Assembly: GCA_024639325.1 (NCBI GenBank)
Contig: JAHEIO010000008.1
Span: 1 to 64,000 of the forward strand
Direction: 5' to 3'
DNA from: Gammaproteobacteria bacterium
GTDB lineage: Bacteria; Pseudomonadota; Gammaproteobacteria; Arenicellales; JAANXG01
DNA length: 64,000 nucleotides
The notes under the pieces were generated by a model. That model saw only the letters and a list, made by a program, of their open reading frames with translations. It was not told where the DNA came from and searched no databases. Shown piece after piece: positions 8,170-64,000 of this stretch; within the stretch, counting starts at the first letter, position 1, and each line of letters opens with the position of its first letter. The translations under genes and the position numbers were made by a program.

Positions 8170-8754
8170 CGCAAGCGCGGAGCAGGCCCAGAGCCCGTCG
8201 GAATCGACCGACGACAAAACCCTGAATCTGCTCGCGTACCGAAGTCTGGGGGGCGACGCGTTTTGACAGGGCGACCTAATTTTCGCCCGGCGTTATCTTC
8301 AGCAAGGTGCAGATATCTACGATCCGAAAACCCACAGCGCTCTGGCCTATGTCTATTTCGTGGATCCCGGTGTGGTGTGTCTATCGATGCTGGCGCCGTT
8401 CTCTGCTTCGGGATCGCAATGGAAGAGCTGAGCTGGGGCCAGCGACTGTTTGGTTTCGACACACCCGAATTAGTATAAAAGCACATCGCTCAACTCGAGT
8501 TCAGCGTACACAACATGCTCAAAGAGCAGCGCGTGGTTATGAATACCGGTCTCGTAACTACTTCCCTGTTGATTCTAATAGTGGCATCGTTCTTCCAAAA
8601 CGTCTTTCCACACGCCAGCCTGATCATCTGTGCCGTCACCTTCGGATTCGCCGGCGCTTTGGACGTTCTGCTGCCCAACGAGGTATTCGAGGCGCTGGCC
8701 ACCGTATTTGTGGCATTTTACGCCTACCGGATCTACAAACTTGGCAACACGTGA
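8170..8754 (+). pseudogene. Decayed integral membrane protein gene (frameshifts and in-frame stops)
   Basis: Fragments LAYRSLGGDAF*QGDLIFARRYLQQGADIYDPKTHSALAYVYFVDPG (one frame), then MEELSWGQRLFGFDTPELV*KHIAQLEFSVHNMLKEQ..., TM segments and FYAYRIYKLGNT (another frame), with a TAA between. Confidence 0.6.
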
Positions 8755-41637: not shown

Positions 41638-44163
41638 ATGAAGACTAAGATCACTCGCATAGTAATCTCTATCATCGCTGTCGGTATTTTGGGACTCGCA
41701 AGTGCTACCGATCTGAGCGCCGGTAGTTCTGGAAATTCCGGCTGCGGTAAAGGTACGGGCAAGGTATTGGACGAGGCGCTTTGTGTGGGCCGGACCGCCG
41801 AATCCTTTCCGGCGGCGGACGAGGATTATTTTCGCGACATGGATTATGGCATCACTAAACGTCCCCAGGAAGTGGCGGCGGCGCTGGAACCATACCTGCC
41901 GGGAATCTCACCCGAAGATGCCGTCGCCGCCGTCGTAAAGGGACGCAATAATTGGATCGTCTGGAGCGGCGGCATCGATAGGATGTGGGACGTTCTCGCA
42001 GGGAACAGTGTAGGTGCTTTGGATATGCTCAAGGCGATCTCAAATCATCCTAGCTTGAAGTACAATCGCGACAACCGATGGTACAACCAGGGCCTGGTGA
42101 ACGAACCGTGCTTTGAAAAAGCCACGGGCCCAAGACAAGATCGTTATGGTTTGTGGTTGGACGTGCGAAGAGAGGGCTGCGGCCCTGATCCTTTTGAAAA
42201 CGAACAAAAATATCCCGGCGTAAGGATTGGCGCCCGTGGCGATAATATCGCGGTCGGCTCTTACTATGGATACGCCAGCGGCGTTATGGGTTTGCGGTTG
42301 TTTCCCAATCCCGAATTCGACGCGAAGGCTGAAGCAAATTGGGATCCGATTCGCTACTACGAAGATCCAAGCTATTATTTCGATAAGAAATTAGTTCGTC
42401 CTTATCGAGTGGCAATGACCTGTGGGTTTTGCCATGTCGGACCCAATCCAACGAATCCCCCGGACGACCCGGAAAATCCAGCATTCGAGAATCTCAATTC
42501 CAATCCGGGCGCCCAGTATTTTTGGGTTGACCGGATCCTAAATTGGGACCCCGATCCATCGAGTTTTCCCTATCAGTTATTTCATACTTCCAGACCCGGC
42601 GCGCTGGATACATCGCTCATTTCCACGGACTACATCAACAACCCGAGTAATATGAATGCGGTCTACAAATTGGGGGCGCGCATGGCCATGGCCAAGCGAT
42701 GGGGCAAGGAGACCATTGCGGACGGAGGCCTGGACAATAAACAATTCGACGAATTTGTTCCCGCGGGAAGCCCGCTGACAAGTTTTTACGAGGCGCCGGA
42801 TTCCGTGTGGACCCCTCGCGTTTTGAAAGACGGCGCGGATTCGGTGGGGGCGCTGGGTGCGCTGAATCGTGTTTTTATAAATATTGGGTTGTTTAGTGAG
42901 GAATGGTTCGAACACTTCAAACCGCTTATTGGCGGTGCGCCGTTCACCCCCTTCGAAATCGCGGTGGCCAATGAGAATTCGTCTTACTGGAACGCGACGG
43001 AAAATCAAACTACCGACCTTGCGCTATTTTTCCTGGCCGCATCGAGGCCGGATTTATTGGAAGACGCCCCGGGCGGGGATGCTTACCTGACCGAGGACGC
43101 GGCGCGTTTGGAAAAGGGGAAGACGGTATTCGCAGAACGTTGCGCGCGATGTCATTCAAGCAAACTCCCCGACAAGGCGTTTACATTCTTTCCCGACGAA
43201 GGCTGCGCCGGCTCGGGATATCTCCAATGCTGGAACGACTACTGGGCCTGGACTAAAACGGACGAGTTCAAGCGAAGCATGACCGAGCTTGCACTCGACT
43301 CGGATTTCGTTGAAGACAACTATCTTTCTACGGACCTGCGAATTCCCATTACGCTGTTAGAAACCAACGCGTGCCGGCCGCTTGGCACGAACGCCCTGGC
43401 CAACGATATTTGGGATAATTTCTCATCAAAGTCATACAAGGACCTTCCATCCGTCGGGACTATCACCGTGCATCACCCCATAAGCGGTGAACCACGAGAG
43501 TACTCGATGCCGGCCGGTGGTCGCGGTTATACGCGCGTACCGTCACTCACAAGCATTTGGTCCACCGCTCCGTTTTTATTAAACAATACGGTAGGCAAAT
43601 TCGATTGGCGCGGTTCGGTAGAGGGGCGGATGGTTTCGTTCAATGACTCAATTCAAAAAATGCTATGGCCTGAAAAGCGTGCAGGCGAGCGCCTGTATAA
43701 AACCGAATCCGGTAAGGATTTGCCCGGCGTGATCGATGTAACCACGGCAACCAGCTACCTGAGGGTGCCGGCGGGGTACTTGCCGACATTTCTCAAACGA
43801 TTAGGTGGTCCGTTGGAACGTTGGCTACCGTGGTTGTTCAGTGCCGATGGCATTCAGATTGGCCCCATCCCCAAGGGAACGCCGGTGAACTTGCTGTCGA
43901 ATCTGGATCTGGAAAAAAAACGCGAGGTTCTGAAAGTCCTGCTGAAAACAAAAAAAGAACTCAAGGCGCTTCCTCCCGATGCCTCCGATGAAGCGGCGCG
44001 CGAGCAATTCCGAGATTTGGTCGATCCCATGTTAGCCGTAAGCAAGTGCCCGGATTTCGTGGTCAACCGCGGCCACTATTTCGGCACGGATTACCAACCG
44101 GACGAACCCGGGCTAAACGATGATGATAAGTTGGCTTTGATCGAATTTCTCAAAACCTTGTAA
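41638..44163 (+). CDS. Exported c-type cytochrome-like multihaem protein (about 840 aa)
   Basis: CXXCH motifs CGFCH and CARCH; signal peptide MKTKITRIVISIIAVGILGLASA; C-terminal DDKLALIEFLKTL as in cytochrome c/MauG/RoxA-like proteins. Confidence 0.8.
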   Translation: MKTKITRIVISIIAVGILGLASATDLSAGSSGNSGCGKGTGKVLDEALCVGRTAESFPAADEDYFRDMDYGITKRPQEVAAALEPYLPGISPEDAVAAVVKGRNNWIVWSGGIDRMWDVLAGNSVGALDMLKAISNHPSLKYNRDNRWYNQGLVNEPCFEKATGPRQDRYGLWLDVRREGCGPDPFENEQKYPGVRIGARGDNIAVGSYYGYASGVMGLRLFPNPEFDAKAEANWDPIRYYEDPSYYFDKKLVRPYRVAMTCGFCHVGPNPTNPPDDPENPAFENLNSNPGAQYFWVDRILNWDPDPSSFPYQLFHTSRPGALDTSLISTDYINNPSNMNAVYKLGARMAMAKRWGKETIADGGLDNKQFDEFVPAGSPLTSFYEAPDSVWTPRVLKDGADSVGALGALNRVFINIGLFSEEWFEHFKPLIGGAPFTPFEIAVANENSSYWNATENQTTDLALFFLAASRPDLLEDAPGGDAYLTEDAARLEKGKTVFAERCARCHSSKLPDKAFTFFPDEGCAGSGYLQCWNDYWAWTKTDEFKRSMTELALDSDFVEDNYLSTDLRIPITLLETNACRPLGTNALANDIWDNFSSKSYKDLPSVGTITVHHPISGEPREYSMPAGGRGYTRVPSLTSIWSTAPFLLNNTVGKFDWRGSVEGRMVSFNDSIQKMLWPEKRAGERLYKTESGKDLPGVIDVTTATSYLRVPAGYLPTFLKRLGGPLERWLPWLFSADGIQIGPIPKGTPVNLLSNLDLEKKREVLKVLLKTKKELKALPPDASDEAAREQFRDLVDPMLAVSKCPDFVVNRGHYFGTDYQPDEPGLNDDDKLALIEFLKTL

Positions 44164-44568: not shown

Positions 44569-46410
44569 ATGCTTAAACCTGCCAAGTCAGAATCCGACGC
44601 GCCCGGAGACGGTAGAGACGCTTTCGAGTACATAGTTGTCGGCTCTGGAGCGGGGGGCGGCCCTTTGGCGGCGAACCTTGCGCTGTCCGGGTTTAAGGTT
44701 CTGTTACTGGAAGCCGGGGGTGACGATGAACCCTACAACTATCAAGTCCCTGCTTTTCACACCCTGGCTTCGGAAGATGACCGCTTGAGCTGGGATTTCT
44801 ACGTGCGCCATTATGCGGACGATGCCCAGCAGCAGCGTGATGAAAAGTTTACTTCGAAGCGCAAAGGCGTGCTCTACCCACGCGCCGGAACCCTGGGTGG
44901 CTGCACCGCACACCATGCCATGGTCACGATCTACCCCAACAACAGCGATTGGGATCAGATCGCCGAGGCGACCGGTGACGACAGCTGGATTAGTGACAAG
45001 ATGCGCGGCTATTTCGAGCGTTTAGAACGCTGCGAGTATGTGCCTGCTTCCGACACCGAAAGTCGGCACGGATTTCACGGATGGCTGGCGACAAACGTCG
45101 CCGATCCGGCAATGATAGTTGGGGACAAAGTTCTCAAAAAACTCATAATCGCCGCGGTGAAGGAATCTTATTCAGAGCTCCGCAAACCTTTCAAGCGGGC
45201 GTTTGAAAGACTGGGGCATGGTTTCGACCCGAATGATTGGCGTCTGGTCGAACGCGGCTCGGAGGGGATATGCGTGGCCCCCCTTTCCATATCCAGCGGA
45301 AAGCGCAGCGGAAGCCGAGAATACATTCGACACGCACAAAAGGCTTGCCCGGAAAATCTGACGGTAAGAACCGACGCTTTGGTATCGCGCATCGTTCTCG
45401 ATGCAGAGAATCGTGCGACGGGCGTGGAGTACATCGCGGGCAAAAGCTTATACGAAGCGGATCCGCGATCCGGGGGCGATGAAGTGGGCGAAGCGCATGT
45501 GGTTTCCGCCACCCGTGAGGTAATACTGAGCGGGGGTGCGTTCAACACACCTCAAATACTCAAGTTGTCAGGAATTGGGGCCAAAGAAGAGTTGGTTAGA
45601 CACGGAATAGACGTGAAAGTGGATCTTCCGGGGGTTGGCGAAAATCTGCAGGACCGGTACGAGGTGTGTGTAGTTTCCAGGTTACGGAAACGGCTGTCGG
45701 TATTAGAGGGCATGAAGTTTCATGCGCCGGCGGATAACGAAAGCGCCGACCCGCAGTTCAGTGAGTGGTTGAATGGAAAGGGCCCATACACTACGAATGG
45801 AGCGGTTATCGCGATAATGAAACGTTCTTTTCCAGAACGTCCGGATCCGGATTTGTTTATGTTTGGAATATTGGGAAACTTCAAAGGCTACTATCCGGGA
45901 TATTCCAGGAAAATTCTCGAAAACAAAACTTTTACATGGGCTATTCTAAAGGCGCATACTGAGAACAATGCCGGGCGCGTGACCTTGAAATCCGGTGATC
46001 CGCGTGATGCGCCCGATATCAACTTCAATTACTTTACCGAGGGTGCGGACAAAGATTTGGATTCCGTAGTGTCAGGAGTAAAAACCGTACGCAGAATCCT
46101 GGCTCGAAACAAAGACCTAGTGGAATATGAAATGCTGCCCGGACGGGATGTTGAAACAGACGAAGAGATTCGGCAGTTCGTTAGAGACAATGCTTGGGGT
46201 CACCATGCTTCTTGTTCGTGCAAAATGGGCCCTGTTAGCGACGCGATGGCGGTGGTCGACAGTAATTTTCGGGTCCATGGCACGCAAAACCTGCGCATCG
46301 TCGACGCATCGGTATTTCCCAAAATTCCCGGGTTCTTCATTGTGACTTCGGTGTATATGATAAGTGAAAAAGCCAGTGACGTGATCATTGCCGACGCGAG
46401 GCAAAAATAA
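44569..46410 (+). CDS. GMC-family FAD-dependent oxidoreductase (choline dehydrogenase-like)
   Basis: YIVVGSGAGGGPLAANLALSGFKVLLLEAGG; YPRAGTLGGCTAHHAM; SGGAFNTPQILKLSGIG; C-terminal WGHHASCSCKMG...VDASVFPKIPGFFIVTSVYMISEKASD. Confidence 0.92.
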   Translation: MLKPAKSESDAPGDGRDAFEYIVVGSGAGGGPLAANLALSGFKVLLLEAGGDDEPYNYQVPAFHTLASEDDRLSWDFYVRHYADDAQQQRDEKFTSKRKGVLYPRAGTLGGCTAHHAMVTIYPNNSDWDQIAEATGDDSWISDKMRGYFERLERCEYVPASDTESRHGFHGWLATNVADPAMIVGDKVLKKLIIAAVKESYSELRKPFKRAFERLGHGFDPNDWRLVERGSEGICVAPLSISSGKRSGSREYIRHAQKACPENLTVRTDALVSRIVLDAENRATGVEYIAGKSLYEADPRSGGDEVGEAHVVSATREVILSGGAFNTPQILKLSGIGAKEELVRHGIDVKVDLPGVGENLQDRYEVCVVSRLRKRLSVLEGMKFHAPADNESADPQFSEWLNGKGPYTTNGAVIAIMKRSFPERPDPDLFMFGILGNFKGYYPGYSRKILENKTFTWAILKAHTENNAGRVTLKSGDPRDAPDINFNYFTEGADKDLDSVVSGVKTVRRILARNKDLVEYEMLPGRDVETDEEIRQFVRDNAWGHHASCSCKMGPVSDAMAVVDSNFRVHGTQNLRIVDASVFPKIPGFFIVTSVYMISEKASDVIIADARQK

Positions 46411-47554: not shown

Positions 47555-49762
47555 TCACGCAACGGTGCTCAGTTGGGCGCGCAGGCTGGGCGCCGGGTCT
47601 GGAGAGCGCAACAGCTGCTCGAGTGACGTCAACGGTATGGGTTCGGAAAGGATAACGCCCTGGGCATACGGGCATTTCATTTCCCGCAGGCGCATCAGCT
47701 GGTCGGTGCGCTCGACCCCCTGGGCGATAACCGAAAGATTCAAGCTCAAACCCAGGCTGACGATCGCTTTGGCAAGATCGGTCTCCACCGCAGCCTCGGT
47801 GAGCCCGGAGACGAATAGCGGGTGTATCTTGATCACGTCCACCGGGAAGCGATTGAGGTAGGTGAGAGACGAGTAGCCGGTGCCGAAATCGTCGAGCGCC
47901 AGCCGGACCCCAAGCGACTTAAATGTGTGCATCACCGAACGGGAATCATTAATTGCGGTGAACGCCGCGCTTTCCGAGACTTCCAGCACCACTCGCTTAG
48001 GCTGGATGCCGGAGGTCTGTATAGCGTTCTGCAGGTCCGCAGTGATCTTCGGATCACTCAGCCGCGACGGCAACACGTTCAGATGCAAGTCCAAACTCCA
48101 GTCGTTTCGGGGCACCGTGAGTTCCTGAAGAGTTCTACAAGCCTCGTCGAACACCCAACGGTCTATATCCGATATCGAGCCGGACTGCTCGGCGATGGGC
48201 ACAAACGCGCTGGCCGGCAACATGCCTCGTTTTGGATGCCGCCAGCGTATCAGGGCCTCAAGCGCCGTGATGCGTCCGCTGTCGAGAGAGAAAATCGGCT
48301 GAAAGGCCAGTTCGAATTCTTCTTGTTCCAGCGCCCGCCACAATTCGGCCTCGAGATCGGAATGATCACGGGTATCTGCATCCAAGTTTTGCTTGAACAC
48401 AACGGTTCTGGCTTTGCCCGACCGCTTGGCTATTCGCATCGCCGTGTTCGCGTTGCGCAGAAGATCAGTGCCCGTCTTGGACTCAAGCCCCTCCAGCGCG
48501 ATGCCGACGCTGATGGTCAGCTTGACCGTTTTATCCCGAACACTGGTTACGTAAGGCTCCGACAGTTTCTTGTGCAGGCGTTCGGCCGTGCAAGCTACGT
48601 CAGCGGAGGAGCGAATGCCTTCGATCATGATGGCAAACTCATCGCCGCCTAAACGCGCCGCCGTGTCCGTCGTGCGCAGACAACTTCGCATGCGCCGGCC
48701 AAGCTCAACCAGGACTTCATCACCCGCGAAATGTCCCAGGTTGTCGTTGATCGATTTGAAATCGTCGACATCAACGAACAACAAGGCCACCCTCTTGCCG
48801 CCCCGCCGCTGACGGGAAATCCCCTGCTCCAAGTGATCAAGAAAATAGAAGCGGTTCGGAAGCGAGGTCAGCGTGTCGTGCAGCGCTTGATAAGCGCTTC
48901 GTGACGCGGTCAGCCGCTGCTCCTCGTACAGCTGAGCGTTGGCGATGGCCGAAGCGGCCTGCTCGGCAAACAGGCTGAGAGCGCGCAGGTCGTGCTGCGT
49001 ATAGTTATGCTCGGCGGTGGCGTCCACCTGCAGTACACCGAGCAATGTTTCACGATGAATCAGCGGTACGCACATGGTGTTCGACGACGATTCCCGAGGA
49101 TTGCCCTTGGCATCGGTGAGCGTTTCCGAGGCGAGCAGCGGCTCCCGCGAGTTCGCTACCCGACCCGCCAACCCTTCTCCAAAACGAACGGTCTGATTTG
49201 TGTTCCCGGTCACGCCGCGAAGCTGGTCTTCCGCCTGCACCATCATGATCGACGACGCCCGGCATTCGAGCAGATCGTGGGCACATCGGCTGATGGTATC
49301 TAGCACGCCCTGAAGATCCAGATTCAGGTTTAACGCCTTACCCGCCTTGAGAAGAAAGCTGATCTCGCGGAGCCGGTTGGTCAGTGAAGCCGTCAACACC
49401 CGCTCCGACACCAGCAGCTCGGTCAGACGTCTCAGCTGCATCTCCTTTTCCAGGGCATAGCCGCTGAACAGGAAGACCAGCAGCAGCAGAGCGACCTGCA
49501 GCAATTCTGGACGAAACCAGTCGGACTCGAACTCGCTGAGCCCCAGGGTGATGAATACCAGCACGACCGAGACCGAAACCAGCAGCAGCAGGGCGGTGAT
49601 CCAGAGCTGCAACCGTCTTTTTTCCACCGCCTCCAGCGTGGGCGTGTGGAAATCTCGGAGCCCCGCGATTCGGGCGGTTCTCTCGATGTCCGCCTGGGAG
49701 TTCGAACCCCGACGCGCCCCCGCGGCCGAAGAATCTGGATTTTTTTTCATACGTTTCTCCAC
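47555..49762 (-). CDS. GAF-GGDEF-EAL c-di-GMP signalling protein with N-terminal TM segments
   Basis: GGDEF core RLGGDEFAIMIEG; EAL core ITALEALIRWRHP and DDFGTGYSSLTYL; GAF-like region upstream. Confidence 0.92.
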   Translation of the reverse strand: MEKRMKKNPDSSAAGARRGSNSQADIERTARIAGLRDFHTPTLEAVEKRRLQLWITALLLLVSVSVVLVFITLGLSEFESDWFRPELLQVALLLLVFLFSGYALEKEMQLRRLTELLVSERVLTASLTNRLREISFLLKAGKALNLNLDLQGVLDTISRCAHDLLECRASSIMMVQAEDQLRGVTGNTNQTVRFGEGLAGRVANSREPLLASETLTDAKGNPRESSSNTMCVPLIHRETLLGVLQVDATAEHNYTQHDLRALSLFAEQAASAIANAQLYEEQRLTASRSAYQALHDTLTSLPNRFYFLDHLEQGISRQRRGGKRVALLFVDVDDFKSINDNLGHFAGDEVLVELGRRMRSCLRTTDTAARLGGDEFAIMIEGIRSSADVACTAERLHKKLSEPYVTSVRDKTVKLTISVGIALEGLESKTGTDLLRNANTAMRIAKRSGKARTVVFKQNLDADTRDHSDLEAELWRALEQEEFELAFQPIFSLDSGRITALEALIRWRHPKRGMLPASAFVPIAEQSGSISDIDRWVFDEACRTLQELTVPRNDWSLDLHLNVLPSRLSDPKITADLQNAIQTSGIQPKRVVLEVSESAAFTAINDSRSVMHTFKSLGVRLALDDFGTGYSSLTYLNRFPVDVIKIHPLFVSGLTEAAVETDLAKAIVSLGLSLNLSVIAQGVERTDQLMRLREMKCPYAQGVILSEPIPLTSLEQLLRSPDPAPSLRAQLSTVA

Positions 49763-50138: not shown

Positions 50139-51533
50139 ATGTCCGCCGCCGTAAGCGAACTCAATTACCTCCGCAAAGCCCACCGGGTAAACCTCCCGAT
50201 GGTGATCGAGATCGATGGTAAGAACTACAAGGCGGCGGACTGGTCGGTCGCGGGCGTCGGCATAGAAGGATTTGACATAGACCTCGGAATAAACCAGGTG
50301 ATCGCGGCGCGCTGCGTGCTGCCGATGCCGGATTCTTTTATTACGCTCAAGGTCGAGCTGCAGTTGAAGGCCCGGCGTCGTGACGTTGCCGGTTTCGAGT
50401 TCAAAAACATCAAACAACGTCAGAAACGCGTGCTTCGACACTACATCGAAAGCGCCATCGAGGGAAAGATAGATAATGTCGAAGACCTCATCTCCGTGGT
50501 CACGACTCCCGGTCTCGCTTCTCCCATCGAAGACGCCCTCAATCTGACGGAACTCGAAGCGGAATCGCTGTTCAAGCGGTTCAAAGCCAAAAGCTATGTT
50601 TCCATCGGTCTCGGCATACTGTTCGTGATTACGGTGATGATCGTCCTTTTCTACAACACGGTATACCGCATACACGCCACCGGTCTTGTCAGCGGCAACA
50701 TCGAGCGCGTCACCGCCAACTCGGGCGGTATCGTCGAAACGATTCTTGCGGGTCCGAATTCGTATATCGATGCCGGAACGCCAATGTTCACGATTGAAGA
50801 CCCAAGTATAGGGATCGAACTCGAGAATGTTCGCATGGCCCTGGGCAACATCGATGATCAGATAGATTTACTGGGCTATAAAACTGATCGCGGCGTGAGC
50901 GGACTGGTTGAGTCGCTCAGGCGGAAATTACAGAAAAAGGAACAGGAATATGAGAACGCACGCGAACTGTTCGACAAACGTATCATATCGATCAAAGACT
51001 TAAGTTTCGTCGAGAACCAATATCATCAGGCCTCCGTGAGCTACCAGCGCGCCGTCGAAGAGGCGGAACAGGGCCGTTCCGGAGTTGCGGCTCAGATCGA
51101 CCAGCTGCGGCGCGAAAAAACCGCCCTGGTGACCCAGCGGGACGCTCTGCTGCAGCGTCAGGCCCGGCAAACCGTGGCCTCTCCGGTCAAAGGGAAGGTA
51201 TTCCACGTCGAGCATTCCGCGGGCGAGTACGTCACCCCCAACGACATCATGGTGCTCATCGAAAAAAACAGCCCTCCCAACGTGCTGGTGAAATTGTTGA
51301 CCGAAGATGCCCTCAAAATCAGGATCGGCATGGATGCCGATGTCTACGTCCCAGCGACGGACGTGGAATATGTCGCCAAGGTCATCGCCGTCGGTTACTC
51401 TTCGGTCAACGGCCAGGCCACGGCGACCCAGGAGGCCAGCCTGAACGAAACGCTCATCAGGCTCGAGTTCGTGGACAAGCGCGTCCGCCTGCCGGCGAAT
51501 ACGCGCGTCAAGGTCTGGATCAAGACGCTTTAG
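50139..51533 (+). CDS. PilZ-HlyD membrane-fusion protein, Alg44-like
   Basis: PilZ motifs RKAHR and DWSVAGVG; TM; HlyD/biotinyl-lipoyl-like hairpin (ANSGGIVETILAGPNSYIDAGTPMFTIEDP...ASPVKGKVFHVEHSAGEYV). Confidence 0.82.
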   Translation: MSAAVSELNYLRKAHRVNLPMVIEIDGKNYKAADWSVAGVGIEGFDIDLGINQVIAARCVLPMPDSFITLKVELQLKARRRDVAGFEFKNIKQRQKRVLRHYIESAIEGKIDNVEDLISVVTTPGLASPIEDALNLTELEAESLFKRFKAKSYVSIGLGILFVITVMIVLFYNTVYRIHATGLVSGNIERVTANSGGIVETILAGPNSYIDAGTPMFTIEDPSIGIELENVRMALGNIDDQIDLLGYKTDRGVSGLVESLRRKLQKKEQEYENARELFDKRIISIKDLSFVENQYHQASVSYQRAVEEAEQGRSGVAAQIDQLRREKTALVTQRDALLQRQARQTVASPVKGKVFHVEHSAGEYVTPNDIMVLIEKNSPPNVLVKLLTEDALKIRIGMDADVYVPATDVEYVAKVIAVGYSSVNGQATATQEASLNETLIRLEFVDKRVRLPANTRVKVWIKTL

Positions 51534-51541
51534 CCGCAGCC

Positions 51542-54181
51542 GTGGTCAGACGATTCGGACGCAAAGAGGGGCTGATCTCCTTCATCATCCCGGGAATCTC
51601 GTACTCGCTGATCGCATTCGGTATCGGCTACTCCATGTGGCCATATTTTTACTACGTGAAGAACGAAACGTTTGTCGTGCTTGGGGCTTTTGCGCTGTGG
51701 CGTTACGGATGGCAGTTGACCCACTATGTTCGTTCGACCATGTACGCCCTGTTTTACTACCCTAAACTCAAGAGAATCGTGGCCGGCATTCCCGACCAGA
51801 GCAAATATCCGGCGCACATTTTCTTCGTGATACCTTCCTTCAAGGAAGAGCCCTGGGTCTCCATCGAGACGTTTCAGTCGATATTCTCGGAATTGTCCAG
51901 CGTACCGTGCCGGGCGACCCTGATCGTGTCCACAGGGTCCGATCAGGACGATGCAATTATTGCTGCCACTTTCGATGCCCATCCTGTGCGCCACAAGACA
52001 GAGCTGATACTGCAGCGCCAGACCCAGGGCAAACGAATCGCCATGGGTCACGCGCTGCGCGCGGTCGCCAGACGATACGAGGAGGAACCCAACAGCATCA
52101 CCATTTTCATGGACGGCGACAGCTATCTGGAAAGCCACACCCTCGAGAAGACCATTCCTTTCTTTAGCACCTTCCGAGATCTTGGAGCGCTGACCACCAA
52201 CGAGGTCGCCTACATCAACACGCACTCCAGTTGGTACAAAGAGTGGTTCAACCTGAAATTCGGCCAGCGCCACGTGCTGTTTCAGTCGCAGTCGCTGTCC
52301 AACAAAGTGCTCACCCTGACCGGTCGCTTCTCGATGTTTCGAACCTCCGTCATCATCAAGGAGGAGTTTATCAAGCAGCTTGAAACGGATGTGATCACGC
52401 ACTGGCGGCACGGCAAGTTCAAATTTCTCATGGGCGACGATAAAACCACATGGTTTTATCTTTTGAAGAACGGATGGAACATGCTGTACATTCCCGACGT
52501 CACCACGTACTCCCTGGAGAGCCGCGATGCGAATTTCCTGTCCGTCAGCACCTCCCTGCCGTATCGTTGGTACGGCAATACGCTGCGCAATAATGACCGG
52601 GCGCTCGCCCTGGGCTGGCGCACGACCGGTCTGTTTACCTGGATCGCCATCCTCGATCAGAGGCTCTCCATGTGGACCTCCCTGGTTGGTATCACCGGCG
52701 CGGTGATACTGTCCATATTCAACTCCTTCATCTACCTTCCGTTCTACCTTGCGTGGGTGTTTGGGGTGCGGGTCATTCAAATGTTCGTGATCGCGGTTCG
52801 CGGCCATCCGGTAAGCATGCTGACCATTCCGCTGATGCTGTACAGCCAATGGTTTGGCGCCATCGTCAAAATACGGGCGTACTTCAATCTTTCCGATCAA
52901 AAATGGTCGAAGGGCGGCGCCAAACAGACCAGCGACGACAACGTCGTGATGATCGATCACGCGCTGGTGCGATGGCTGCCTTCGTACCTGATGTATTTTT
53001 CGTACGCGGTGTTCTTTTTCGCCCTGCTGCTGGCCCAGGGCGCCGTTTCCATGCCGGACCTCGCGTTCTTCAACCAGTCCGATCGTGAGGCGGTCGTTGA
53101 AGCGCAATTCTACGGCGTCACGCCTGACGATGACCGAGATGACGCGCTCGCTCTGCAGGACATCATCGACCGCTTGCCGGACGGGGAGAATACGGTGATA
53201 CGCTTGCCGCGCGGAAAATTGGATTTTTATAAACCGATCCGCCTGAAAAGCCACATCAGCCTGCACGGGCACGGGCCCCGGGAAACGCAAATCGTCTCGC
53301 ACCTCAAACGGCCGGCGGAGGCGGTTATATCTTTTCACGGCAGATTGGGAGATCGTATAGGCACGCTAATAAGGGACGCCCGTCCCGGCGATCGTAACCT
53401 TCATCTGTCACGCACCAACGACATCCGCCGGGGAGATCTTTTACTGCTTGAAATGCCGAACGACCGGCGTTTCCTGGAAGCGCTAAACAGCAGGCACTGG
53501 AACAAAAAGTACCCGTACCTCAGGAAGGTACTGGTCGAGGTCGAACGCGTTCACGGCAACACGGTTGTTACGCGCCATCCCGTGGGATTGCCCTTGGAGA
53601 GTTCTGCTACGCGCGTGCTCGAAGTCATTCCAGCCACACAAGTTCGGCTCAAGGGATTCACTCTTGAACAGCGCGTCCCCGGCGCGTCCCCGGCCCAGGT
53701 GCAATTCGAGTACGAAAACTCACACCCAGACTACGCCGTCGACGCAATTAGCGGCCAATGGGCGGAGCGCTGCCTGATCGAGGACCTGCACATCCTTGAC
53801 AGCGGCCGCCACCCGCTGGCCTTCGATAACGTCTACGCCTGCCGCGTCAGGGACCTGGTGATCAACGGGGCGTGGAACAAGGGCAAACGGGGCCACGGTT
53901 ATGTGAAACTGTCCCGCACCTTCCACAGCCGCTTTACGGACAGCGAGGTCAACCACATCCGGCACATCGTCCTGCAGTGGAGCTCGGCCTTCAATACGCT
54001 GCAGAATATCAGGACCGGTGTGGACGTGAACCTGCACGGCGGTTATACGCATCACAACATCGTTCGGGACATTGACTTCGACATCCCGGCGGGCCACCCG
54101 TGGTCGGGGATCGTACGAACGCCATCCGACGCCCGCTGGGCGCCGCCGGATGGCGAAAACCTAATCCTAGTTGACGACTAG
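51542..54181 (+). CDS. Alg8-like family 2 glycosyltransferase fused to a C-terminal pectate-lyase-like beta-helix domain (GTG start)
   Basis: GT2: FFVIPSFKEEPW, STGSDQDD, IFMDGDSYLE, LTGRFSMFR, RWYGNTLRNNDRAL, several TMs. C-term: FYGVTPDDDRDDALALQDIIDRLPDGENTVIRLPRGKLDFYKPIRLKSHISLHGHGP. Confidence 0.82.
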   Translation: MVRRFGRKEGLISFIIPGISYSLIAFGIGYSMWPYFYYVKNETFVVLGAFALWRYGWQLTHYVRSTMYALFYYPKLKRIVAGIPDQSKYPAHIFFVIPSFKEEPWVSIETFQSIFSELSSVPCRATLIVSTGSDQDDAIIAATFDAHPVRHKTELILQRQTQGKRIAMGHALRAVARRYEEEPNSITIFMDGDSYLESHTLEKTIPFFSTFRDLGALTTNEVAYINTHSSWYKEWFNLKFGQRHVLFQSQSLSNKVLTLTGRFSMFRTSVIIKEEFIKQLETDVITHWRHGKFKFLMGDDKTTWFYLLKNGWNMLYIPDVTTYSLESRDANFLSVSTSLPYRWYGNTLRNNDRALALGWRTTGLFTWIAILDQRLSMWTSLVGITGAVILSIFNSFIYLPFYLAWVFGVRVIQMFVIAVRGHPVSMLTIPLMLYSQWFGAIVKIRAYFNLSDQKWSKGGAKQTSDDNVVMIDHALVRWLPSYLMYFSYAVFFFALLLAQGAVSMPDLAFFNQSDREAVVEAQFYGVTPDDDRDDALALQDIIDRLPDGENTVIRLPRGKLDFYKPIRLKSHISLHGHGPRETQIVSHLKRPAEAVISFHGRLGDRIGTLIRDARPGDRNLHLSRTNDIRRGDLLLLEMPNDRRFLEALNSRHWNKKYPYLRKVLVEVERVHGNTVVTRHPVGLPLESSATRVLEVIPATQVRLKGFTLEQRVPGASPAQVQFEYENSHPDYAVDAISGQWAERCLIEDLHILDSGRHPLAFDNVYACRVRDLVINGAWNKGKRGHGYVKLSRTFHSRFTDSEVNHIRHIVLQWSSAFNTLQNIRTGVDVNLHGGYTHHNIVRDIDFDIPAGHPWSGIVRTPSDARWAPPDGENLILVDD

Positions 54182-55699
54182 CTCGCTCAAGACATCGGGG
54201 ATGACGAGCGCTTCCAGCTGCAGCAGGACTTCGTAGGCATCGAGACGCGCCAACAGGATATCCTCCTCCTTGGCCAGCAGATCCACGGTCAGGTGATCGA
54301 TCGCTTTGTCCGGCACCGCCGCTAATGCAGGCAGAGGGTGCTCACGGTACTCCCGTTGAAGATCGCGGTGCCTTTCCAGCAGCCGGTACTCGCTGGCGGC
54401 GGTCTTGATCCTTTTCTGGTGAAACTGGAATAACTCGGAGAGACGATTTATCTTTTGTTCTAGGCGAGCAATGATCGCCTGCTGCTGATCTCGATAGGCG
54501 GATTGTTCAATGTCAATCAACTCCTGTCGCCCGTGGTTGGACCCGATCGGTATTCGCGCGCGGATGCCGACGATATTGGTCAATTCGTCCGCGCCGAACT
54601 CCCGCTCGGTTCCCACGTACAGCCGCAGCGAAAGGTTATCGAGCCATTCGGGAAAAGATTCACTTCGGCTGATGAACAGTTCCTGAATCCGTAAATCGTA
54701 AGAATTATCCACCGCTTTGTCAGTCAGGGAATCAAACGGGGCGAGAGAGACATATTCGATCGTATTGACGATGTCGAAATCTCGCAGACGCATGCGTCTT
54801 CGATCGAGCCCCGAATAGTGGTGCACGTCGTGCTGCGCCCTTTCATATTTATAACGCATATTCTCGTATTCGGTTCGAGTCACATAGCCCTGCTCGAGCT
54901 GCTCTTCGTACTTGGCCAACAGGTTCTTCAAAGTCTTGAATCTTTTCTTGGCTTGGTAGAACCGCGTTGAATTCGACACTCCCTGGAACCGAAACAGCGC
55001 CTCATGCAGGTTGCGCTCATGCATATCCCTCAGCAGCTGCAGATACTGAAGCTTAGTTTCAACCCGCTTCTCATCGAGCTGTTTCTTGGATTCGCGCCAA
55101 CCTTCGTCGAACAGCTCCCACTCCAGCGCCAAGAATTCCCGTTCATCGCTATTGTCCATATCGCGTTCAAACTGTGATCGAAAGTAGAATCCCTTGAAGC
55201 TGCCGCGTTCGTTGAGTTTTTCAAGGTACTTATCGCGGACGTTTTCTATTCGTCCAAGGATATTGGATATAGAGCCATCGGTTTCCGACTCGATTGCTAT
55301 GAACGAATCGGGGAACAGCACGGTATCGAATTCATTCAGGCCAGGAGCACAGGTCGAGTGATCGCCGTCCGGGATGACGAACGACGCTTCCATGAAATAT
55401 CGTTTCGTGACGTTCACGTACGCAGAGGGGTATGCTTCCCGGAAACGTTCCAGGTGCCTCATCGCGAGCAAATAACTTCGCTCCGGAGAACATCGTACAG
55501 TGTAATTTCCCGGTACGGATACCACACGACAACGATCTTCGAGCTGCTGTTCGCGCAGGAATTCGGACGCCTGCCGCTCGACCGGCATTGCGGCCAGCTG
55601 CACGGTGTAACAAGAGATGTCCGCGGCCGCTGCGGCCGCGGACATCAAGAACAATATCGAGCCGACGGTTCCGCAGGCCGACGGTTTGTCTTTTTTCAT
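54167..55699 (-). CDS. Exported SPOR-like/TolC-like coiled-coil outer-membrane protein
   Basis: Signal peptide; N-terminal CYTVQLAAMPVERQASEFL...CRVVSVPGNYTVRC; C-terminal long helices (YEEQLEQGYVTRTEYENMRYKYERAQHDV); stop overlaps the stop of the GT gene by 15 bp. Confidence 0.6.
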   Translation of the reverse strand: MKKDKPSACGTVGSILFLMSAAAAAADISCYTVQLAAMPVERQASEFLREQQLEDRCRVVSVPGNYTVRCSPERSYLLAMRHLERFREAYPSAYVNVTKRYFMEASFVIPDGDHSTCAPGLNEFDTVLFPDSFIAIESETDGSISNILGRIENVRDKYLEKLNERGSFKGFYFRSQFERDMDNSDEREFLALEWELFDEGWRESKKQLDEKRVETKLQYLQLLRDMHERNLHEALFRFQGVSNSTRFYQAKKRFKTLKNLLAKYEEQLEQGYVTRTEYENMRYKYERAQHDVHHYSGLDRRRMRLRDFDIVNTIEYVSLAPFDSLTDKAVDNSYDLRIQELFISRSESFPEWLDNLSLRLYVGTEREFGADELTNIVGIRARIPIGSNHGRQELIDIEQSAYRDQQQAIIARLEQKINRLSELFQFHQKRIKTAASEYRLLERHRDLQREYREHPLPALAAVPDKAIDHLTVDLLAKEEDILLARLDAYEVLLQLEALVIPDVLSELVVN

Positions 55700-55929: not shown

Positions 55930-57321
55930 TTAGCGCACGCCGTAAACGTACCGGGGCGGCGCGATATCGTCGTTACTGGCGGCGCTCCCTGCCGTTGAGG
56001 TCCCGCGCCCGATGCCGTAGTAGCTAAAGCCCTTGCCGGCAAGAAAATCCGGGTCGTAAATATTGCGACCATCGAAAATCACCGGTTCAAGTAGCAGCCG
56101 CTTGACCTCCTCGAAATCCGGGCTCTGAAAGACACGCCACTCCGTCACCAACGCCAGGGCGTCAGCGCCCTGCAGCGCGGCCTCCGGCGTTTCAGCCAGG
56201 TGTAAATCGTCCCGCTCTCCATAAATGCGCATGGCCTCTTCGTGCGCCGCCGGATCAAATGCGCGAACCTTGGCGCCGGCCTCCCACAGCGCCTCCAGAA
56301 GCACGCGGCTCGGTGCCTCGCGCATGTCATCCGTGTTGGGCTTGAAGGCCAGTCCCCAGATGGCGATAGTCCGACCTTTGAGGTTTCCGTCGAAATGGTG
56401 TTTGATCTTGTCCACTAATATTCGTTTCTGATTGTCGTTGACGTCCTGAACCGAGCGCAGCAGTTTGGCGTCGGAGCCGACCTCCCGGGCGGTGCGCTCC
56501 AAAGCGGATACGTCCTTAGGAAAACACGATCCACCGTAACCGCATCCCGGATAGACGAAAGAATATCCAATGCGCGTGTCCGAACCGATGCCGTGGCGCA
56601 CCTGCTCGATGTCGGCGCCAACGCGTTCCGCCAGGTTCGCCAGTTCATTCATGAAGCTGATCTTGGTCGCGAGCATGGCGTTGGCGGCGTATTTGGTCAG
56701 TTCCGCCGAGCGGATATCCATAGCAATCAGGCGGTCGCGGTGCCGGTTGAAAGGGCCGTAAATCACCCGCAACAGCTCCGTGGTCCTCGGATTGTCGGTG
56801 CCGACCACGATACGATCGGGTTTCATGAAATCATCAATGGCGGCTCCCTCCTTGAGAAACTCGGGATTGGACACCACGTCGAATTCGATCTGGACACCGC
56901 GTTTTTTCAACACCTCGCAGATCGCGGTTCTGACCTTGTCCGCCGTGCCGACAGGTACGGTTGATTTATCGACGACGACGCGGTAATCCGGCATGTACTC
57001 GCCAATAGTCTCAGCCACCCCCAGTACATACTGTAAATCCGCCGAGCCGTCCTCGTCCGCAGGAGTTCCGACGGCGATGAACTGGAATAGTCCGTGCTCT
57101 ACCGCTTCCCGGGGGTCCGTGGTGAAATTCAATCGCCCGGCTGCGATATTTTTGCTCACCAGACGGTCCAAATCGGGTTCGTAGATGGGGATCCCACCGT
57201 TTTTCAATTGTTCGATCTTCGACGCATCCACGTCCATGCACATTACTTCGTTGCCGACCTCCGCCAGACAGGCACCGGTTACCAGACCCACGTAGCCGCT
57301 TCCAAATATCGTCGTCTTCAT
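55930..57321 (-). CDS. ugd: UDP-glucose 6-dehydrogenase
   Basis: [91 protein letters not shown]. Confidence 0.88.
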
Positions 57322-57574: not shown

Positions 57575-60517
57575 ATGAACACAATCAAGACGCAATTTGG
57601 AGCGGGGCTGATCGGCTGCGTGCTCCTCGTGACTTGTCCGGTCGTGCCGGCGACGGTGGATTTGCCGGACACCACCGTCCTGCGATCGTGGATCGAAGAT
57701 ATGAAGGCCTCGGAACGAGGCCCTTTTCGGCGCATTCGCTGGTTCTGCAAAGATGGCGCCGTACTGCCTCCCGATCCGTATGCCTGCGCGGATCGCGGCG
57801 GCGGCTGGCAGCACGGCGAGTGGACGGACCGGGTCAAGCAGCTTCGAGCGGCCGGCTACATGGTCGCCAATATATACGCCGATCTGGATGTCACCGCTCT
57901 CACCGCCGACGAGCATTATCCCGACACCCTCAATCAAATGATAATCGAGCAGTTCCTGATCGCCTCTGACAACGGTTGGATACTTCGCAAGGCCCGCTAC
58001 TACCGCGGTGCGCTGCAGGAGGAGGGCGAACGCAGGGGCGCCCGCAGGCTGCTGCTCAGGCTGGCGCAAGATCCGACATGGCTGAAGCAGCGTTACCTGC
58101 CTTTCCGCACCGCCGTGCGGTTCCTGGGCCACAGCGAGGACACCAAATCCATTGGCGAAGTTCGCCGGCTGGCAGGATCGCTGGCCGACCGAGACCCGGA
58201 TTTTGGACCCTTACGCAACAAGATTCACATCAGACCGGATTACAGTGATGCGGCCGCTGTTCGCGAGTACATCTCCCATCGGCCGGGGTCCAGCCTATCC
58301 GCGGAGTACCAGCGTCTTGCCGGGCTCATCGAGGCGGCGTACGCGGGCCCCTCGGCGGCGCAACTTTTAGAGCGCTTGGCGAATAGCGCGGATGCCAGTG
58401 CGAACCTGGCTGCCTTGTCTCGCGGCGGTGTCAACGCGCTCGCCGACGACTCCACGGCTGAACAACGATTTACTGCGACCGCTGAGTTGCTGTCGGAACT
58501 CAGAATCGCGGCCGTGAGTGAGGCCAGCGCCGGACTGAGGCTCGCGATTGCCGGAGCCAGCCACGCGCTCGAGAATGATCACTTCGTGGCGGCGACGGTG
58601 CTGCGCGATGCCATCGCAGACGCAACCCGGGCCCGCCAGCTCGACTGGTTGAAGGCAAGTGTAAAGGCAACCTATGGGGCGGGTTTGTTGAGCTCCAGGC
58701 AGCGAGACGAGCTGATCGCGGCACTGGACCGGCTGCGAGGCGCGACCCGCGTCGATCTCGAGTCCTACAAGCAAACACTCCAGTATCTTGCGCTCGTGCC
58801 CGGCTGGAGCAGCCAGCGTCAGCGATTTCATTTCGGGGAGTCGGTAGACAGGTTCAACACCATCGCACCGCGTGCCGGCGAGTTCCTGCAGGACCAGCTG
58901 CGCGCCAGTCCGCTATTTTTTTTCAGCCAGGTTCTCGATGGCCTGCTGCAGGACGCCAACCGACTGGCGGGCGTGCGACATGAATTGTTTGGTGAGGAGA
59001 TCGGTGCCGGCCTGCGCGCGCTCAATCCGGGTCTGGCGAGTGGCCGGCTGCGATCCAAGGCGCCACAATACGGAGATTCATTCGACCCACGCGGCATCTA
59101 TTTGTTAGCTTCGACTTTGGCCGATCTGCCGCCGGTAGCCGGCATACTGACAGCGGGAGAAGGCAATCCTCTCTCGCACGTACAACTTCTGGCCCGCAAC
59201 CTCGGCATTCCCAATGTGGCTGTGGACGAGTCCCTGATCCCCAGGTTGCATCAACGGGACGGCGGGGAAGTTGTGCTGGCGGCGTCTTTGCAGGGTTCGG
59301 TTCGACTGATCGACGCGGCTACCGCTCCGCGGGTTGTTCGCGGTTACGATGGGGGGGTTCCCGACACGCTGATTCGTGCCGATCTGAACAAACTCGACCT
59401 GGATCGCAAAGGCCTCATCTCTCTGCGCTCCCTGCGGGCCAGCGACTCCGGTCGCAGCGTCGGACCCAAGGCGGCCAAACTGGGAGAGCTGCATCACCAC
59501 TTCCCCGAGGCTGTGGCCGACGGGCTGGCCATACCGTTTGGCGTGTTCGCCGATTTACTCAGCCAGCCCTACCGCCAGACCGGCCTGTCGGTATTGCAAT
59601 GGATGGCGCGGCAATATCGGAGGATCGACAAGCTGACGGCAGGAACTGAAGACCACGCCAACGCGGTGGAAGACGTCAGGCTGCAGCTGCAACAGTGGAT
59701 CGAGAGCGCAGATCCGGGCGACGATTTCCGCGCCCGTCTGCGTCTCGCGATGGAACAGGAGTTTGGCAGAGAAGGCACCTACGGGGTGTTCGTCCGCAGC
59801 GACACCAACGTCGAGGACCTGCCGGGCTTCACCGGTGCCGGCTTGAATCTTACCGTCCCCAACGTGGTCGGATTCGACAATGTCCTCGAAGCGATTTCAC
59901 GGGTATGGGCATCGCCATTTACGCGGCGAGCGTACGCCTGGCGGCAATCTCGCATGGACCAGCCGGAACATGTGTACCCGGCGGTGCTGCTGTTGCGCAG
60001 CGTCGCGGTCGACAAGTCGGGTGTGTTGGTAACCCAGGACGTCGAGACGGGTGATTCCGATTGGTTCTCCGTCGCCGTGAACGAAGGCGTCGGCGGCGCC
60101 GTGGACGGTCAGGCAGCCGAGTCGTTGCGCGTTCACCTGGAGAACGGTGAAGTCAGGCTAATGGCTCAAGCAACCGTCCCCGTCAAGAGAGTCATCAGGC
60201 CCCGGGGCGGCATCGAAAAAGTTCCCGTCAGCGGTCGCGATCACGTCCTGGAAGTCGGCGAGATCGCGCAATTGATCGAGTTCGTCGAGGACCTGCCGAG
60301 GCGGTTTCCCGCCATCGTGGATGCGAATGGCAAACCGGCGCCCGCTGATATTGAATTCGGTTTTGTTGACAACAGGTTGATGTTGTTCCAGATACGGCCG
60401 TTCCTCGACAGCGGGCGGGCTCATACCAACAGCTATCTGCGATCTCTGGATGCAGATATGCGTCGGTTGGAACAGGTGATTGTCGAGCTCAACCGCAGCC
60501 CGGAGAAACGATCCTGA
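57575..60517 (+). CDS. PEP/pyruvate-binding (PEP-synthase/PPDK-like) protein with N-terminal signal peptide
   Basis: PEP-utilizer swivel AGILTAGEGNPLSHVQLLARNLGIPNVAV; PPDK ATP-binding VGPKAAKLGEL, FVRSDTNVEDLPGFTGAGL, DIEFGFVDNRLMLFQIRPF; N-terminus MNTIKTQFGAGLIGCVLLVTCPVVPA. Confidence 0.82.
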   Translation: MNTIKTQFGAGLIGCVLLVTCPVVPATVDLPDTTVLRSWIEDMKASERGPFRRIRWFCKDGAVLPPDPYACADRGGGWQHGEWTDRVKQLRAAGYMVANIYADLDVTALTADEHYPDTLNQMIIEQFLIASDNGWILRKARYYRGALQEEGERRGARRLLLRLAQDPTWLKQRYLPFRTAVRFLGHSEDTKSIGEVRRLAGSLADRDPDFGPLRNKIHIRPDYSDAAAVREYISHRPGSSLSAEYQRLAGLIEAAYAGPSAAQLLERLANSADASANLAALSRGGVNALADDSTAEQRFTATAELLSELRIAAVSEASAGLRLAIAGASHALENDHFVAATVLRDAIADATRARQLDWLKASVKATYGAGLLSSRQRDELIAALDRLRGATRVDLESYKQTLQYLALVPGWSSQRQRFHFGESVDRFNTIAPRAGEFLQDQLRASPLFFFSQVLDGLLQDANRLAGVRHELFGEEIGAGLRALNPGLASGRLRSKAPQYGDSFDPRGIYLLASTLADLPPVAGILTAGEGNPLSHVQLLARNLGIPNVAVDESLIPRLHQRDGGEVVLAASLQGSVRLIDAATAPRVVRGYDGGVPDTLIRADLNKLDLDRKGLISLRSLRASDSGRSVGPKAAKLGELHHHFPEAVADGLAIPFGVFADLLSQPYRQTGLSVLQWMARQYRRIDKLTAGTEDHANAVEDVRLQLQQWIESADPGDDFRARLRLAMEQEFGREGTYGVFVRSDTNVEDLPGFTGAGLNLTVPNVVGFDNVLEAISRVWASPFTRRAYAWRQSRMDQPEHVYPAVLLLRSVAVDKSGVLVTQDVETGDSDWFSVAVNEGVGGAVDGQAAESLRVHLENGEVRLMAQATVPVKRVIRPRGGIEKVPVSGRDHVLEVGEIAQLIEFVEDLPRRFPAIVDANGKPAPADIEFGFVDNRLMLFQIRPFLDSGRAHTNSYLRSLDADMRRLEQVIVELNRSPEKRS

Positions 60518-61778: not shown

Positions 61779-62672
61779 CTAGGAGCCTGTCTGAGCAAGC
61801 GTGGTTGGGACAATAAGCTCGTGAAGCCGCTGAATGATCTTCGGCAACCAAACCGAACCCTGGGAATTTTCTGCCAACGCCACCGCAATGTACCGGTGTT
61901 TGCCGTCCTCGACGATTGCACTGTCGGCGTGCCAGCGCCGCCACGAACCCGATTTCCGGTATATCCGAACGCCGGGATATTTTGAAAGACCCTTGACGAA
62001 TTTATGGCGGATGCCGGGATTGCCGAGCATCGCTTTCATTTGCCGCGACAAATCGTCACGCAGCATGCGTTTGGTTTCGAGCAGGTAATAAAATCGCGCG
62101 GTCTGCAGCGCGGTGGCGCCGTGGGACAGGTTGTGCAGTGGATCTCGGCGGTACGCGGCTGATTTGCCGTATTCCTTGCCGACCCACAGGCCGCCGTTGG
62201 CATCGGGATCATAAAGGCGAAAACGATCGGACATCAGAATATCGATGAGTTCATCCTTGCCAACTCGGTTCAACATGCGCGTAGCCTCGACGTTCGAAGA
62301 CACGCGTATCATGCGGGTCAGCGAGTCCCTGGTTTCCGTGGTGAACGCCATTTCGCCCTGTTCAATCTGGACAAACGCCCCCAGGAGTATGGCGATCTTG
62401 GGCAGACTGGCGGCATAAAACATTTCGTCGCCGTTCAGCGAAGCGTATCGCGGCTTGTCCGCGTCTGTGATGTCCACCAACGCCACCGCCAGCTTCTTGT
62501 CGTCGACGACGTGTTGAAGCGCTAATGCCGCTATGGATTTTTCCAGACCATCCTGTAGTCTTGGATCGATACTTTCACGCAGCGTCGGATAGCCATCGGA
62601 CGAGTCCGCCACAACGTGGCCCGGCATCGGCGACAGCAGTGACAGGGCGATTATCATAAGGATAAATCGCAT
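61779..62672 (-). CDS. Exported serine hydrolase (class A beta-lactamase-like); likely start 62672
   Basis: FYAASLPKIAILLGAF (SxxK), RVSSNVEATRML (SxN), IYRKSGSWRRWHADSAIVEDGKHRYIAVAL (KSG); signal peptide begins MRFILMIIALSLLSP. Confidence 0.8.
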   Translation of the reverse strand: MRFILMIIALSLLSPMPGHVVADSSDGYPTLRESIDPRLQDGLEKSIAALALQHVVDDKKLAVALVDITDADKPRYASLNGDEMFYAASLPKIAILLGAFVQIEQGEMAFTTETRDSLTRMIRVSSNVEATRMLNRVGKDELIDILMSDRFRLYDPDANGGLWVGKEYGKSAAYRRDPLHNLSHGATALQTARFYYLLETKRMLRDDLSRQMKAMLGNPGIRHKFVKGLSKYPGVRIYRKSGSWRRWHADSAIVEDGKHRYIAVALAENSQGSVWLPKIIQRLHELIVPTTLAQTGS

Positions 62673-62735
62673 GGACGAGGAATCCCCCCTTTTTGCAGGT
62701 TTATAAATATACTTACTAGTCGAGAACCGGTGCAT

Positions 62736-64000
62736 ATGATACCTGCCAAAAGACTTTCGGACAATCCAACGGCCGTTGCCCGCCGGCGGGCCGCCATCCT
62801 GTTTGTCAATTTCCTGTTCATTATTCTTGCTTATTACCAGGTTAAATCCGCCAGTCGTTCCCTGTTGATCGAGCACTGGGGCGCCGACCGCTTTCCTTAT
62901 GTGTGGATCTTTTCAGCTTTGATTCTCGGCGTATTCATAGCTTTTTATCATCGCCTGGTGGAACGTTACAATCGCCTGCACGTAGTCCTTGGATCGTGTT
63001 TGTTGTTTGTCGCGCTGTTGATTTTATTCCGGGTCATGCTGGAGTCGATGAGCGCCGCGGCAACGATCGGTTTTTACGTATTCGTCGATATTCTGAGCGT
63101 AGTCCTGGTGGAGCAGTTCTGGAGCCTCGCCAACACCATAAACAACGTCGACGATGGAAAACGCTCCTATTGGTTTGTCGGCACCGGCGGGCTGGTCGGC
63201 GGCGTGCTCGGCGGCGCGCTGGCGGCGGCGCTGCTGCGCTATACGCCGATGACGACCGCCGACCTGTTGTTGTCCTGCGCCGGCTTGCTGGCGATAGTCT
63301 TCGCGCTCAACGTGGTCATGGCACGCATGGGTTTGTACGAGGAAATAAAAAGCGACGTTTCACCGGTGCAGGTGGCGAACGGATGGCGATCATTGCTGCA
63401 AAGCCGCTACTTGGTCCTGATTTCGGCGGCGTTGCTGTGCGCGCAACTCGCACAGCCCGTGGTGGAGTATCAGTTCATCAAGTCCGTGGAAGCCGCGTAT
63501 CAGGAACTCGATCAACGCACCGTGTTTATTTCCACGTTCTTCAGCGTTCTGGGTATTGTATCGATCGTCGTCAATCTGATGTTTACACCCATCATCCATC
63601 GCTTTTTCGGTATCGTTGCCGGTTTGCTGACACAGCCGATCGTCCTCGCAATCTGCTCACTGGGTTTTATTGCAATACCAAGCCTCGTGATGGCGTCGAT
63701 TGTGAAGATCAGCGATCGCGGCCTGTCATATTCGATTAACCGCGCCTCCAAGGAACAGCTGTACATCCCCATCGACCCGGTCCGTACCTATCAGGCCAAG
63801 GCGTGGATCGACATGTTTGGATACCGCTTGTTTAAAATTCTGGGTTCGGCCCTGATACTGTTATTTACGCAATGGCTGCCGGTCAGTCTGAATGTTCCGC
63901 AACTGGGCTGGATTACCGTCGCCGTATGCGCACTATGGGTCGCGGTTATCGGTCTGCTCGCCAGGGAGTACCGCGCGGTGGCGTCAATGCCGGTGCCCGC
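62736..64000 (+). CDS. NTT (Npt1/Npt2-like) nucleotide transporter/MFS-like membrane protein, truncated by the window end
   Basis: Open frame from ATG 62736 to the window end: MIPAKRLSDNPTAVARRRAAILFVNFLFIILAYYQVKSASRSLLIEHWGADRFPYVWIFSA..., multi-TM, SINRASKEQLYIPIDPVRTYQAKAWIDMFGYR. Confidence 0.7.
   Translation, partial: MIPAKRLSDNPTAVARRRAAILFVNFLFIILAYYQVKSASRSLLIEHWGADRFPYVWIFSALILGVFIAFYHRLVERYNRLHVVLGSCLLFVALLILFRVMLESMSAAATIGFYVFVDILSVVLVEQFWSLANTINNVDDGKRSYWFVGTGGLVGGVLGGALAAALLRYTPMTTADLLLSCAGLLAIVFALNVVMARMGLYEEIKSDVSPVQVANGWRSLLQSRYLVLISAALLCAQLAQPVVEYQFIKSVEAAYQELDQRTVFISTFFSVLGIVSIVVNLMFTPIIHRFFGIVAGLLTQPIVLAICSLGFIAIPSLVMASIVKISDRGLSYSINRASKEQLYIPIDPVRTYQAKAWIDMFGYRLFKILGSALILLFTQWLPVSLNVPQLGWITVAVCALWVAVIGLLAREYRAVASMPVP

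Follow-up and report, generated by a model that had tools for sequence, protein, structure and literature searches.

An Alg8-family polysaccharide synthase fused to a lyase/epimerase-like beta-helix in Gamma- and Betaproteobacteria

The gene discussed here belongs with the synthase-dependent exopolysaccharide systems. In alginate systems, AlgL clears polymer from the periplasm (PMC8829089). In PNAG-like loci, which are also synthase dependent, a modifying enzyme can be part of the same protein as the glycosyltransferase (GT), as in the fusions of a GT with the PgaB deacetylase found among divergent PgaB clades (PMC7112194). These GT–deacetylase fusions are the nearest precedent for the arrangement considered here; no report of a fusion between a GT2 synthase and a beta-helix, or between a synthase and a lyase, was found in the open-licence literature. 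Poly-glucuronate, the polymer to which much of the evidence below points, has few known producers (PMC10180729). On the degradative side, comparison is made with a K1 capsule lyase, in which Tyr311, His373, and Arg397 are required for catalysis and Arg333 and His334 lie at the -1 site (PMC8822698).

The fusion gene lies at positions 51542..54181 on the plus strand of the window, that is, the whole stretch of 64,000 nucleotides that was analyzed. It is a single open frame with a GTG start at 51542 and a stop at 54181, and it encodes an 879 aa protein made of an Alg8-family GT2 synthase and a C-terminal beta-helix. Only 8 nucleotides separate it from the stop of the upstream Alg44-like gene. The GT2 catalytic domain (residues 91–346, 51812..52579; Pfam PF13641, Glyco_tranf_2_3, E 1.2e-27) carries the family-wide DGD and GDDK motifs and ends in an RW motif (L-P-Y-R-W, 339–343). 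Beyond it come two hydrophobic helices (about residues 377–419, 52670..52798), recognized by hydropathy and charge and modeled as helices by AlphaFold at low confidence, then a stretch of cytoplasmic type rich in Lys and Arg (418–482; 7 KR, 4 DE), a last transmembrane helix assigned from hydropathy and charge (about 486–504, 52997..53053), and an acidic linker (500–530; 6 DE, 1 KR). The right-handed beta-helix domain, lyase/epimerase-like by its predicted model and fold matches, takes up the remainder (about 516–879, 53087..54178). The preliminary description, which had drawn an Alg8-like GT2 synthase whose transmembrane segments run into a beta-helix in one frame, thus had the coordinates and the layout right. 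The AlphaFold check that it proposed worked out for the helix part (pLDDT 91) and failed for the GT part: there the full-length model drops to a pLDDT <50 across much of 212–473, too low to judge how the domains touch. The hydrophobic segments around the GT, the KR-rich stretch, and the acidic linker are consistent with a cytoplasmic GT and a periplasmic beta-helix, the orientation favored by charge and helix order.

The fusion is not an assembly error, a danger raised when the gene was first described, since the same one-frame fusion is present in 12 loci from separate assemblies, without internal stops, and these form one clade. A frameshift artifact is likewise ruled out by the open frames of the 12 loci. 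Four other genomes of the same family carry the fusion intact, with C-terminal domains that are 58–91% identical, and more distant Gamma- and Betaproteobacteria carry it at 34–47% identity. Scanning one genome for each species added fusions from two Ramlibacter, an uncultured gammaproteobacterium, and one MAG each of the Burkholderiales and the Lysobacterales, and two more fused genes came from an additional genome search. Besides a group of Gammaproteobacteria that are uncultured, some Betaproteobacteria carry the fusion, among them the cultured Ramlibacter alkalitolerans. The count of 12 comes from a single profile scan plus about 1,700 partly overlapping genome look-ups, and is a sample rather than a census. 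Within its own family the fusion is patchy, being present in 5 of 13 genomes. In a tree built on 42 Alg8-like GT domains, the 12 fused GTs form a single clade with support of 100/100 and a single change of state, and the unfused synthase of genome G424 is its sister. The simplest history would be one fusion event followed by vertical or horizontal spread in the Gamma- and Betaproteobacteria.

The kinship of the synthase with Alg8 is confirmed by the profile of the fused GTs, which finds the unfused synthase of genome G764 in a locus that also holds a nucleotide-sugar dehydrogenase. AlgK, AlgG, and AlgL, each identified by an NCBIfam equivalog model at a score above cut-off, are encoded there too. 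The Alg8 next to these verified genes scored about 361 bits, and the fusion synthase is 34% identical to Alg8 of the verified alginate operon. The motifs DGD, LTGR, GDDK, RW.GN.LR, and DQR..MWT are common to the fused GTs and Alg8. Unfused homologs, mostly of about 500–600 aa, were found by the GT profile at 360–406 bits in 23 further genomes sampled across the phylum, with more in the class sample. Neither the GT nor the Alg44-like protein had a useful match among PDB sequences.

That Alg44-like protein is encoded immediately upstream on the same strand (50139..51533) and combines a PilZ domain, a transmembrane segment, and an HlyD-type membrane-fusion domain, as judged from Pfam and motifs. 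HlyD_3 and HlyD_D23 are above the Pfam cut-off, and PilZ, with an E of 0.001, is just under its own. The PilZ motifs RxxxR and [DN]xSxxG are kept in nine homologs, which is consistent with control of this partner by c-di-GMP. On the other side, a TolC/OEP-like outer-membrane factor (54167..55699, minus strand; Pfam OEP above cut-off) is convergent with the fusion gene and overlaps it tail to tail by 15 bp (54167–54181). Similar tail overlaps between the two genes are seen in the relatives L009, L011, L012, L013, and L038. Both of these genes were found again in the fused loci that were compared, and the gene order is kept: PilZ-HlyD, fusion, convergent TolC-like factor, and often a UDP-glucose dehydrogenase.

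In the window this UDP-glucose 6-dehydrogenase (UGD), a source of UDP-glucuronate, is encoded at 55930..57321 on the minus strand. It scores 593 bits against the UDP-glucose dehydrogenase 2y0e, compared to 211.5 bits against the GDP-mannose dehydrogenase 1mfz. The gene adjoins the fusion in L011, L012, L014, L015, and L018 as well, where it is divergent and upstream instead of downstream. Gamma and Beta lineages alike have it beside the fusion, and two arrangements occur. It was not found in the flanks compared of the fused loci L009, L013, L016, and L038. A second UGD copy, 62% identical to the first, is present elsewhere in the genome, so the copy at the locus may be dedicated to it. With a dehydrogenase of the UDP-glucose type at the locus, the donor sugar is probably UDP-glucuronate, and the locus is therefore not an alginate locus. 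Of the alginate system invoked at first, the kinship with Alg8 stands and the rest is analogy, the dehydrogenase being of the UDP-glucose and not the GDP-mannose kind. A tblastn search of ten fused loci and the window found neither AlgK nor AlgG.

Other genes of the window deserve a brief mention. A GAF-GGDEF-EAL protein (47555–49762, minus strand) is encoded about 0.4 kb from the putative c-di-GMP-sensing gene and was not seen beside other fused loci. The plus-strand gene at 57575–60517 encodes 980 aa with a signal-peptide-like N-terminus, a pyruvate phosphate dikinase-type ATP-binding domain, and a weak PEP-utilizing mobile domain. Its product appears to be an exported PEP-synthase-like protein, which is odd, given that the periplasm is not expected to contain ATP. 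It is followed by a convergent pair of the beta-lactamase fold (PF13354; 60517–61773, plus strand, and 61779–62876, minus strand) that matches no NCBIfam model. The dikinase-like and beta-lactamase-like genes were considered as parts of the locus and rejected, since no matches to them occur in other fused loci. Farther away, an 847 aa protein with CxxCH motifs of the cytochrome c type (41620–44163, plus strand; no Pfam match at E <= 1e-4) precedes a GMC oxidoreductase at 44569–46410.

The Pfam match of the C-terminal domain to Pect-lyase_RHGA_epim (PF12708) is weak (residues 523–584, 21.7 bits, below the 27-bit cut-off), so the beta-helix reading rests on the model and the fold matches instead. 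A stand-alone relative of the domain just reaches the same cut-off, with 27.1 bits. The model of residues 521–879, made by AlphaFold with 11 sequences, has a pLDDT of 91.2 and a pTM of 0.91. Its best match among solved structures is the K1 capsule lyase 7w1c (Z 30.4, 296 residues, rmsd 2.5 Å), followed by phage tailspikes at Z ~27, and many beta-helix hydrolases match at Z 22–24. As the Z 22–27 range includes epimerases, hydrolases, and adhesins, the predicted fold by itself leaves the chemistry undecided between these classes. A PDB sequence search with the helix gave weak N-terminal matches at most. A phage origin of the domain is not supported: PHROGs returned weak tailspike matches, viral contigs gave no relative, and the BFVD matches are at the level of the fold, with about 8–15% identity.

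Within this domain, K780, G781, G784, Y787, R807, H808, S814, N818, D828, H832, and N839 are invariant in the 14 domains compared, which include four stand-alone proteins, some of them secreted, and reach down to 24% identity. The signature of the group is KGxxGxxY...RH...WS...Dx[NQ]xH, and the invariant polar residues fall on successive coils of the predicted helix. Three elements on the plus strand stand out: the KGxxGxxY motif with the putative active-site residues K780 and Y787 (53879..53902), R807-H808 as putative uronate carboxylate or -1 site residues (53960..53965), and D828-x-N-x-H832, whose D and H are invariant and whose His is the putative catalytic one (54023..54037). By hhalign, R807-H808 aligns with R333-H334 in an RH...W.S stretch of the K1 lyase; this alignment is weak (6.5% probability), and no counterpart of Arg397 was identified in it. 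D828-x-N-x-H832, which ends in N-L-H832, resembles D371-T-H373 of the K1 lyase by inspection alone, and the residue correspondences between the two proteins are suggestive. A confident model, a best match at Z ~30, and these invariant residues bear out the lyase/epimerase-like C-terminus of the preliminary description, with uronate-acting lyases and epimerases as nearest neighbors, and count against its doubt that a catalytic groove or fold similarity might be missing. In locus L047 (7264–9681, minus strand), a stand-alone relative with the KGxxGxxY/RH/DxNxH signature also has RTX-like calcium-binding repeats, a layout like that of AlgE.

The company kept by relatives of the fusion bears on the chemistry. 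In genome G698, a secreted stand-alone relative of the helix (E 6e-43, hhalign profile) adjoins a PF05426 lyase, the glucuronate isomerase UxaC, an SDR, an IclR regulator, and two sodium symporters, a neighborhood that is, by gene content, a uronate-utilization cluster. A PL14 gene lies about 2 kb from the synthase in the four unfused relatives checked (G424, G768, G837, and G762), and PL14 was found nowhere in the eight fused genomes searched, so the fused helix seems to replace a separate PL14 lyase. The lineages behind this comparison that are independent are few, most of the genomes are drafts, and one unfused genome, G286, was also without PL14 when checked. Together with the adjacent UGD, the uronate cluster and the PL14 pattern point to a lyase acting on a glucuronate polymer. 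L089 (2715–12507, minus strand) is likely a poly-glucuronate locus of the unfused kind, with a UDP-glucose dehydrogenase, an Alg8-like synthase, a PilZ-HlyD protein, a PL14 lyase, a PF05426 lyase, and a Sel1-repeat protein. In L087, an arylsulfotransferase (ASST) with an fn3 domain (6505–8550, plus strand) is encoded about 0.6 kb away from the unfused sister synthase, which could point to a sulfated polymer in that genome.

The reading that we hold to have somewhat better than an even chance is that of a c-di-GMP-regulated synthase of a glucuronate-containing exopolysaccharide, in the simplest case poly-glucuronate, with a periplasmic beta-helix lyase carried on its last transmembrane helix. 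The adjacent dehydrogenase would supply UDP-glucuronate, and c-di-GMP would bind the PilZ domain of the neighboring PilZ-HlyD protein. The Alg8-type part would polymerize glucuronate and push the chain across the membrane, where the fused helix would meet it as it emerges and cut it by beta-elimination, so as either to determine its length or to rid the periplasm of polymer that has stalled. The HlyD-type domain of the PilZ-HlyD protein would join up with the TolC-like outer-membrane factor to export the chain. The fused helix would thereby do the job of AlgL in alginate systems, which in the unfused relatives would probably fall to the separate PL14 lyase, and the polymer would probably be made and trimmed at one spot just outside the inner membrane. 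A bolder and more tentative proposal, to which we give rather less than an even chance, is a self-trimming synthase, in which glucuronate is polymerized in the cytoplasm, the chain is beta-eliminated in the periplasm, and chain length is coupled covalently to c-di-GMP-controlled synthesis. If true, it would be a polyglucuronate machine with HlyD/TolC-type export, distinct from those of alginate, cellulose, PNAG, and Pel.

An unlikely alternative is that the fused domain works as a C5-epimerase on the nascent chain and turns its glucuronate into iduronate, much as AlgG acts on mannuronate in alginate. It keeps its place because the reaction chemistry is common to lyases and epimerases; the A-modules of AlgE7, AlgE6, and AlgE4 are also among the best fold matches (Z ~26), and alginate operons have a separate periplasmic beta-helix epimerase in AlgG. 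However, the DPH[DE] motif present in AlgG and AlgE is absent from all 14 domains, and no sequence relation between the helix and AlgG was detected (-1.5 bits with all filters off), which favors a lyase over an epimerase. The same score rules out descent of the domain from AlgG. The top fold match is a lyase, and in the utilization cluster that holds the stand-alone relative a lyase is more sensible. It is quite improbable that the domain has another chemistry, such as that of a glycoside hydrolase, or that the polymer is not mainly glucuronate (e.g., glucuronate with another sugar, as in a hyaluronan-like chain): GH28-type hydrolases do match at Z ~23, the UGD is non-adjacent in some fused loci, and the GT has no NCBIfam match other than a weak one to NodC, but the GT groups clearly with the Alg8 family, and the UGD adjacency and the uronate cluster indicate a uronic acid. 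Least probable of all is a catalytically dead, structural domain that binds the chain and guides it to the HlyD/TolC-type exporter, as its expected site at the exit and the binding role of some beta-helix scaffolds (the PfbA adhesin, at Z ~24, is one) might suggest, because K780, Y787, R807, H808, D828, and H832 stay unchanged in a domain that otherwise drifts to 24–34% identity, an active-site pattern.

With a natural covalent synthase–lyase, whether polymer is cut as it leaves the synthase could be tested directly on a single protein. The locus is also a candidate genetic locus for bacterial poly-glucuronate, available in the cultured R. alkalitolerans, and the signature of the helix defines an enzyme group that Pfam covers marginally.

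Compared with known systems, the locus resembles the Pseudomonas-type alginate operon in its GT2 family, its Alg44-type PilZ-HlyD partner, and the grouping of a uronate donor dehydrogenase with polymer-modifying enzymes. It differs in having a UDP-glucose dehydrogenase where the alginate operon has the GDP-mannose dehydrogenase AlgD, in having a TolC-like factor in place of AlgK/AlgE, and in carrying its modifying enzyme, unrelated in sequence to AlgG, on the synthase, whereas AlgG and AlgL are separate proteins. The AlgE4, AlgE6, and AlgE7 A-modules share its fold class and a uronate substrate and differ by their DPHE-type motif. AlgE proteins also have R-modules that bind calcium, and they are secreted. 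The GT–PgaB fusions have a deacetylase rather than a beta-helix and serve a different polymer. The nearest solved fold, over about 300 residues, is the K1 capsule lyase ORF34 of Klebsiella phage NTUH-K2044-K1-1 (7w1c, 7w1d), which cuts its substrate at glucuronate and whose active-site region resembles the RH...W.S and D-x-(x-x)H motifs of the helix, although it is a trimeric phage tailspike without a synthase and with about 15% identity. Also related are the unfused PL14 loci (G424, G768, G837, and G762), which share a related synthase with one PL14 gene nearby, a PilZ-HlyD protein (G768) or an HlyD protein (G424) adjoining the synthase, and, in G768, a UGD 65% identical to that of the fused locus; in them, the lyase is a separate PL14 protein and not a beta-helix on the synthase.
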